Assembly (NCBI GenBank): GCA_020354665.1
Contig: CP070653.1
Coordinates: 2,805,439-2,869,438, forward strand
Reading direction: 5' to 3'
Source of the DNA: Burkholderiales bacterium
GTDB taxonomy: Bacteria; Pseudomonadota; Gammaproteobacteria; Burkholderiales; Burkholderiaceae_C
DNA: 64,000 bases
Shown: piece after piece, positions 38,983-40,287 of the stretch
Layout: each line of letters starts with the position of its first letter
How positions within the stretch are numbered: position 1 is the stretch's first letter
The notes under the pieces: model-generated
What the model was told of the DNA's origin: nothing
The model's input: the letters and a program-made list of their open reading frames with translations, nothing else
Databases searched by the model: none
Program-made: the position numbers and the translations under genes

Positions 38983-40107
38983 TCAGCGCTTGTTGCGCCG
39001 CGCCTTTACAGCCTCGCTCAGCGATTCGAGCAACTCGACCGAGTCGTCCCAGCCGAGGCAAGGATCGGTGATGCTCTTCCCGTACTCGAGCTGCGCCGGG
39101 TCATCCTTGCCCGGCGAAAACTTCTGCGTGCCACCGTGCAGGTGGCTTTCGACCATCACGCCGAAGATGCAGCACGTCCCCGTGGCGAGCTGCGAAGCGA
39201 CGTCGCGCGCGACCTCGACTTGCCGGTGGTATTGCTTACCCGAGTTGGCGTGGCTGAAGTCGATCATCAGTCGGCAGTCGAGTCCGGCCACCTCGATCTC
39301 CCGGCATGCCGCCGCGACGCTCGTGGCGTCGTAGTTGGGTACCTTGCCGCCGCGCAGGATCACGTGGCAGTCCTTGTTGCCCTTGGTCGAGACGATCGCT
39401 ACCTGCCCGTTCTTGTGAACCGACAGGAAATGGTGTGACCGCGCGGCCGCCTGGATCGCGTCGATCGCGATCCGCAGATTGCCGTCGGTGCCATTCTTGA
39501 AGCCGATCGGCGCGGACAAGCCGGAGGCCAGCTCGCGGTGCACCTGGCTTTCGGTTGTGCGCGCGCCGATCGCACCCCAGCTGATCAAATCGCCGATGTA
39601 CTGCGGACTGATCACGTCAAGAAACTCGCTGGCCGCGGGCATCCCGATGCGATTGATGTCCACCAGCAGCTGCCGCGCGATGCGCAGCCCCTCGTGGATG
39701 CGGTAGCTCTCGTCAAGGTACGGGTCGTTGATTAACCCCTTCCAACCCACTGTCGTGCGCGGCTTCTCGAAGTAGACGCGCATGACGATCTCGAGCGTGT
39801 GCGCGTACTTGTCGCGCTGGGCCTTCAGTCGCCGCGCGTACTCGAGTGCGGCTGCCGGATCGTGGATCGAGCACGGACCGATCACCACCAGCAGTCGGTC
39901 GTCGTCGTTGTTCATCAACTGTCGGATCGTCGAGCGCGTACGGCCGATCAGCTTTTCCACCGGGGTGCCGGCGATCGGGAAGAACTTGATCAGGTGCTCC
40001 GGCGGCGGTAGCGGGCTCACGTCGCGGATGCGCTGGTCGTCGGTTTCGCTGGTCTTCTCGGCCAGCGCGTACCAACCCTCCGGCGTGCTGGCGGACTTGG
40101 CGTTCAT
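38983..40107 (-). CDS. aroG: 3-deoxy-7-phosphoheptulonate (DAHP) synthase, AroG/F/H type
   Basis: The 374-residue protein is a type I-alpha DAHP synthase, the first enzyme of the shikimate pathway (phosphoenolpyruvate plus erythrose 4-phosphate). Visible motifs are LLVVIGPCSIHDPAAALEYARRL, YFEKPRTTVGWKGLINDP, GFKNGTDGN, DCHVILRGGKVPNYDA, MIDFSHANSGKQYHRQ (metal-ligand histidine) and SITDPCLGWDDS. Which aromatic amino acid inhibits it cannot be read off. Upstream lies a leader peptide with a terminator/antiterminator, so expression is probably controlled by attenuation. The gene symbol is a family label; aroF or aroH are equally possible. Confidence 0.93.
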   Translation of the reverse strand: MNAKSASTPEGWYALAEKTSETDDQRIRDVSPLPPPEHLIKFFPIAGTPVEKLIGRTRSTIRQLMNNDDDRLLVVIGPCSIHDPAAALEYARRLKAQRDKYAHTLEIVMRVYFEKPRTTVGWKGLINDPYLDESYRIHEGLRIARQLLVDINRIGMPAASEFLDVISPQYIGDLISWGAIGARTTESQVHRELASGLSAPIGFKNGTDGNLRIAIDAIQAAARSHHFLSVHKNGQVAIVSTKGNKDCHVILRGGKVPNYDATSVAAACREIEVAGLDCRLMIDFSHANSGKQYHRQVEVARDVASQLATGTCCIFGVMVESHLHGGTQKFSPGKDDPAQLEYGKSITDPCLGWDDSVELLESLSEAVKARRNKR

Positions 40108-40146: not shown

Positions 40147-40176
40147 AAGAAAAAACCGCCGGTGCTGCCGGCGGTT
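40147..40176 (-). terminator. Rho-independent terminator-type hairpin with U-tail before aroG
   Basis: On the minus strand AACCGCCGG (40176-40168), loop CAGCA, CCGGCGGTT (40162-40154) form a perfect 9-bp stem, and the RNA continues TTTTTTCTT. The stem flanks can extend by AAG/CTT. This is a strong intrinsic terminator. It lies 39 bases upstream of the aroG start codon, downstream of an aromatic-rich leader ORF; it may also end tldD transcripts. Confidence 0.8.
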
Positions 40177-40238
40177 CTTGGAGGTTCTTTGCGCTGCTGC
40201 TCTCGTCGCTTACGCCTTGCCCTCTCCTGCCGCCGGTG
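40154..40238 (-). promoter_or_regulatory. Attenuator region with alternative antiterminator/terminator pairing
   Basis: Read on the minus strand, segment 2 CACCGGCGG (40238-40230, within leader codons 17-20), segment 3 AACCGCCGG (40176-40168) and segment 4 CCGGCGGTT (40162-40154) occur in order. Segment 3 can pair with segment 2 (antiterminator) or segment 4 (terminator). Segments 2 and 4 are a 10-base direct repeat (plus strand CCGCCGGTGC at 40230-40239 and 40156-40165). A ribosome stalled early in the aromatic codons would leave segment 2 free; one reaching the stop codon would cover it. Inference. Confidence 0.65.
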
Positions 40239-40287
40239 CGGTAGAGAACCAAAAGTAGGCGAACAAGAAAGTGACATGCCCACGCAT
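40210..40287 (-). CDS. Aromatic-rich leader peptide of the DAHP synthase gene
   Basis: A 25-codon ORF begins at ATG 40287 and ends at TAA 40210. Residues 7-14 are F-L-F-A-Y-F-W-F: four Phe (7, 9, 12, 14), one Tyr (11), one Trp (13), six aromatics in eight residues. The ORF is followed by a terminator and then aroG in the same orientation, 102 bases from leader stop to aroG start. This is the layout of amino-acid attenuator leaders such as pheA or trp. The ribosome site is poor (TTCCGCCTC before ATG), so initiation may be weak or leaderless. The ORF is far too short for an ordinary protein call. Confidence 0.65.
   Translation of the reverse strand: MRGHVTFLFAYFWFSTAPAAGEGKA

Follow-up and report, generated by a model that had tools for sequence, protein, structure and literature searches.

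What regulates aroG, the only DAHP synthase gene found in the genome of a Burkholderiales bacterium? In E. coli, the DAHP synthases are under the control of TyrR/TrpR (PMC5343134). TrpR was not found in the genome examined here or in 20 relatives, and the DNA-binding (HTH) domain of TyrR was not found in this genome. The gene resides at positions 38983–40107 on the minus strand of the 64,000-nucleotide stretch of DNA that was analysed (the window). Its product matches model TIGR00034 with 528 bits (cut-off 173), which identifies it as a class-I DAHP synthase (a preliminary description of this locus had called it a DAHP synthase); neither a second class-I enzyme nor a class-II enzyme was found in the genome. 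The gene that follows aroG (38934–38266) encodes an intradiol-dioxygenase-like protein, which matched protocatechuate 3,4-dioxygenase models below their cut-off.

Between tldD (41810–40347, minus strand) and aroG, and starting only ~60 bp past the end of tldD, lies a leader ORF of 25 codons (40287–40210, minus strand, as for all features below) with its ATG at 40287–40285 and a TAA at 40212–40210. The encoded peptide, MRGHVTFLFAYFWFSTAPAAGEGKA, carries six aromatic residues within codons 7–14, the putative sensor codons, exactly as first described. Further downstream, segments 3 (AACCGCCGG, 40176–40168) and 4 (CCGGCGGTT, 40162–40154), defined by sequence, alignment and folding, form the arms of a 9-bp stem with the loop CAGCA and a predicted stability of -16.2 kcal/mol. 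This stem is followed by the U-tract TTTTTTCTT of an intrinsic terminator (40155–40147), whose first two Ts are paired in the stem and whose end lies 39 bases from the aroG ATG (40107). The 3:4 hairpin was missed by a terminator scan of the window; a probable cause is that its stem runs into the U-tract and consumes the Ts there.

Segment 3 can pair instead with segment 2 (CCGGCGG, 40236–40230), an antiterminator partner recognized by sequence, comparison and folding. The preliminary description had located segments 3 and 4, their 9-bp stem and the U-tract correctly, but had drawn segment 2 slightly too long. The 2:3 helix comprises 7 bp rather than 9, formed by CCGGCGG with CCGCCGG (40174–40168), and folding adds an inner helix between GGAG (40227–40224) and CTCC (40183–40180). 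An aromatic-rich leader coupled to a switchable terminator before aroG is a real feature of this locus.

The folding of window RNA in which a ribosome footprint was masked suggests how these segments might be used. When segment 1 (codons 12–17, 40254–40238) is unmasked, it is predicted by RNAfold to form the 5' arm of a protector hairpin of -13.9 kcal/mol, the 3' arm of which (40233–40215) overlaps segment 2. With the footprint at codons 7–14, 2:3 is the predicted fold of an RNA that does not yet include segment 4 (-26 to -31 kcal/mol); with the footprint at the stop codon, 3:4 alone remains. Such alternative folds are also predicted in other families, including the protector hairpin in several of them. 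The leading edge of a ribosome lies 12–13 nt from its A site, and the last aromatic codon is mostly found 9–16 nt before segment 2. This similarity of distances implies that a stall at codon 14 would leave the switch workable. An earlier concern that a ribosome stalled there would partly cover segment 2 is thus answered, because masked folding yields 2:3 even at this codon and the geometry is conserved.

The locus brings together the sequence hallmarks of a classical, ribosome-mediated amino-acid attenuator: a leader rich in codons for products of the pathway, a 3:4 terminator, a 2:3 antiterminator with compensatory change, a predicted 1:2 protector hairpin, and sensor codons at a distance from which a ribosome stalled on them would cover segment 1 and spare segment 2. 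The position of the leader stop varies. In one subgroup (L017, L018, L020, L048, L071, L074, L086 and L101) a TGA directly follows GGCGGA, which places the stop beside segment 2, and elsewhere the stop lies ~18–24 nt past the start of this segment. The codons that flank Trp (alignment columns of window positions 40254–40243) are nearly fixed in the family of this bacterium (the home family), with TTT before Trp in 95 of 98 leaders and TTC after it in 87 of 98. This constancy exceeds the needs of the peptide; a likely reason is that these codons pair with GAGAG within the protector hairpin.

The aroG loci of relatives were drawn from two genome collections, in which L111 and L141 represent one locus. 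All 109 loci that include upstream DNA carry a short aromatic leader, with a core F/Y-rich..YFWFS or a variant of it, roughly 130–250 nt before aroG, so the conservation of aromatic codons in relatives, named at the outset as a check, is borne out. Real same-family loci typically have 6–8 aromatics per 10 codons, and when the DNA upstream of aroG was Markov-shuffled, at least 6 per 9 codons were reached in only 2 of 3060 cases. The YFWFS core is tightly kept, changes among relatives are synonymous or aromatic-to-aromatic, and TTT makes up 65% of Phe codons in the leaders versus 13% in aroG genes. A covariance model built on the complete element yields one full-length match per genome in 37 of 37 same-family genomes, always immediately upstream of aroG (E-values of 1e-36 to 1e-15); its remaining hits are weak and mostly correspond to the terminator part only. 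Every relative aligned has a U-tract of at least 5 Ts. Segment 2 is imperfect in some family members (one mismatch or G-U). RNAalifold supports the terminator alone among same-family leaders because the stems are nearly invariant in this family, and more distant families were needed to reveal changes.

This conservation bears on the simplest alternative, in which the hairpin is merely the terminator of tldD, the ORF is a chance frame, and the aroG promoter lies further down. Terminators between two genes are common, and the short distance from tldD to the leader would suit such an arrangement. Nevertheless, it is a very unlikely account, since chance frames would not be expected to be conserved through synonymous and aromatic-to-aromatic changes, shuffled sequences rarely yield such an ORF, and segment 2 changes in coordination with the hairpin (see below). 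Moreover, the U-tract is followed by aroG within less than 40 nt in 33% of genomes, which leaves little space for a second promoter. The preliminary description had itself named an aroG transcript that starts downstream of the hairpin as evidence against an attenuator, and no promoter-like site was seen between the hairpin and aroG in the window.

The leader and terminator are found in 14 Burkholderiales families (f1, f3, f4, f8, f10, f11, f12, f13, f20, f23, f30, f32, f40 and f44). They were not found upstream of aroG in families such as f5, f14, f18, f21, f22, f28 and f50, and none of 28 genomes sampled from elsewhere in the class, outside the order, had the leader. A second DAHP-synthase paralogue, ~57% identical and present in the same organisms, lacks such a leader in the four cases read (L127–L130). 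One further locus, L174 of family f39, passed the automatic filter; it looks like a chance match and was left out of the count.

Across these families the three RNA segments change together. CCGGCGG/CCGCCGG/CCGGCGG for segments 2, 3 and 4 becomes CTGGCGG/CCGCCAG/CTGGCGG, such that the base next to GGCGG is C/G/C in 84 same-family loci. T/A/T is found in 11 loci from other families and, within the home family, in the single genome L084. Fisher tests that ignore shared ancestry give p = 4e-8 for segments 2-3 and 2e-23 for segments 3-4. Among the sequences aligned, the T/A/T of L084 is the best independent covariation event. The compensatory stem changes that the preliminary description proposed to look for are present in all three segments, and they are slight within the home family.

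The order of residues in the peptide also varies between families (MYTRAAHWFFFGFF, MLHRIAFYFFYFFGFF, MKFASPAFYFYFYGF and MLRTAPYFFWFWYP), and aromatic richness remains constant. This freedom of order with retention of richness favours the sensing of codons over a fixed arrest peptide, in which nascent YFWFS would stall the ribosome on a free ligand in the manner of TnaC. The strong conservation of YFWFS in the home family is what such a peptide would produce. However, the different aromatic orders used by other families, together with codons around Trp (TTT before, TTC after) whose fixation fits RNA pairing by segment 1, make an arrest peptide highly improbable. We assign a still smaller chance to a riboswitch or protein-bound leader that answers to an aromatic amino acid and in which the ORF is incidental. 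Alternative structures would be expected there as well, but Rfam covariance models at the gathering threshold (e.g. Trp_leader, His_leader) gave no match in the window, little is conserved beyond the short stems and the coding sequence, and the aromatic codons are the main element common to the families.

How the leader ORF might be translated is suggested by its promoter. A near-invariant extended -10 element, TGTGCTACATT, ends 6–8 nt before the leader ATG; in the window it reads TG-T-TACATT (40303–40295), 7 nt before the ATG, and transcription is predicted to begin on this codon or directly beside it. Hexamers of the -10 type occur 6–8 nt before the ATG in 106 of 112 same-family leaders and 9 nt before it in two more. 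When 108 relatives are aligned on the hexamer, the TG at -3/-2, which was not used in selecting the hexamer, is 99–100% conserved and no -35 signal is seen. A promoter scan of the window called nothing because this promoter has no -35. Outside the home family, about half of the leaders have no recognizable -10 at that spacing.

The leader in the window has no Shine-Dalgarno sequence, and 96 of 112 same-family leaders show no match to one; aroG is preceded by AGGAG in the window (40119–40115) and by a Shine-Dalgarno sequence of at least 4 nt in 82 of 112. Given a -10 element at 6–8 nt and no Shine-Dalgarno sequence, we infer that the leader mRNA is probably leaderless, with transcription starting at or beside the ATG. 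The poor ribosome site listed initially as a weak point thus finds an explanation in a probable leaderless transcript. The leader ORFs of Corynebacterium glutamicum aroR and Sinorhizobium meliloti trpL are leaderless, whereas E. coli pheL and trpL, unlike the aroG leader, carry a ribosome-binding site.

Conservation, compensatory changes and masked folding together support the original proposal, and we estimate a probability of roughly 0.92 that the element is a ribosome-mediated transcription attenuator sensing charged tRNA-Phe, tRNA-Tyr and tRNA-Trp. The sequence itself displays the parts, their conservation and coordinated changes, the place of the promoter and the lack of a Shine-Dalgarno sequence; from these we infer the start site, the translation of the leader, the stalling, which way control runs and which amino acids count, as follows. 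From the extended -10 promoter, RNA polymerase would start on the leader ATG or right next to it, producing a leaderless mRNA end on which a ribosome would load. With ample charged tRNA, the ribosome would pass the aromatic codons to the stop, where segment 2 would be covered or paired with segment 1, the 3:4 terminator would form, and aroG would go unread. If any of the three aminoacyl-tRNAs were scarce, a stall within codons 7–14 would cover segment 1 and leave segment 2 free, and 2:3 would form before segment 4 is made, which would allow polymerase to proceed into aroG. Most likely, then, aroG is turned up when Phe, Tyr or Trp runs short.

The notion of a general aromatic sensor suits the home family, in which F is present in 112, Y in 108 and W in 109 of 112 leaders, and does not extend to all others, in which W occurs in 14 of 34 leaders and the aromatics are mainly Phe and Tyr. 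By codon content, it is well founded to regard the element as a three-amino-acid sensor in the home family and as one for Phe/Tyr elsewhere.

Other genes in these organisms were also considered. The trpE gene in the window's genome (L231; contig G000:C1, 522899–524275) is preceded by a separate leader ORF with Trp codons (..DRGAWPWRR..), and a Trp-only frame (..RGAWPWR..) precedes trpE in most relatives as well (same-family loci among L225–L236). This ORF is probably a trp attenuator. No such leader was found before pheA in the same organisms.

The closest system described is aroR-aroF of C. glutamicum, in which an aromatic leader peptide likewise lies upstream of a DAHP synthase gene. Its Phe-Tyr-Phe leader is reported to respond to Phe and not to Tyr (PMC4046766; PMC11802643), and aroF transcription is raised on Phe limitation (Neshat et al. 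2014, as reviewed in PMC11802643). That organism belongs to a different phylum and its leader has three aromatics, whereas the leader before Burkholderiales aroG has at least six, which in the home family usually include Trp. The absence of the leader from the 28 genomes sampled in the class beyond the order suggests that the two have separate origins. E. coli pheL-pheA and trpL-trpE resemble the aroG leader in their sensor codons, their U-tract terminator and the 1:2, 2:3 and 3:4 hairpins that exclude one another, but they control terminal branches and respond to one amino acid each. The S. meliloti trpL leader (peTrpL) is also a proteobacterial attenuator, although it senses tryptophan only and controls trpE; its peptide acts in trans as well (PMC7298713).

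A survey of proteobacterial regulons covers TrpR/TyrR and not the aroG leader (PMC5343134), and a genome-wide survey of premature terminators mentions no aro gene in its main text (PMC2965389). In the literature searched, no description of the Burkholderiales aroG leader was found, and an earlier prediction may exist in subscription papers or attenuator databases. Prediction work and databases on attenuators are reportedly due to Vitreschak, Lopatovskaya and Merino. This outcome agrees with the initial impression that this leader had not been described; a DAHP-synthase attenuator as such is already known in Corynebacterium. Attenuation by leader peptides is classical, and the Burkholderiales aroG version is a newly described variant.

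The aroG leader is a possible addition to Rfam and to genome annotation, and the wealth of variants that nature provides allows its putative response to several amino acids and its probable leaderless translation to be tested directly. It is conceivable, if doubtful, that a leaderless three-input OR gate on charged tRNA-Phe, -Tyr and -Trp at the entry to the shikimate pathway replaces TrpR/TyrR across much of Burkholderiales, and that the YFWFS core of the home family adds a nascent-peptide or trans role. Located before the only DAHP synthase gene found in the genome, this one leader would control how much flux reaches Phe, Tyr, Trp and whatever else is made from chorismate. It offers an RNA route by which bacteria without detected TrpR/TyrR could control the first committed aromatic step.
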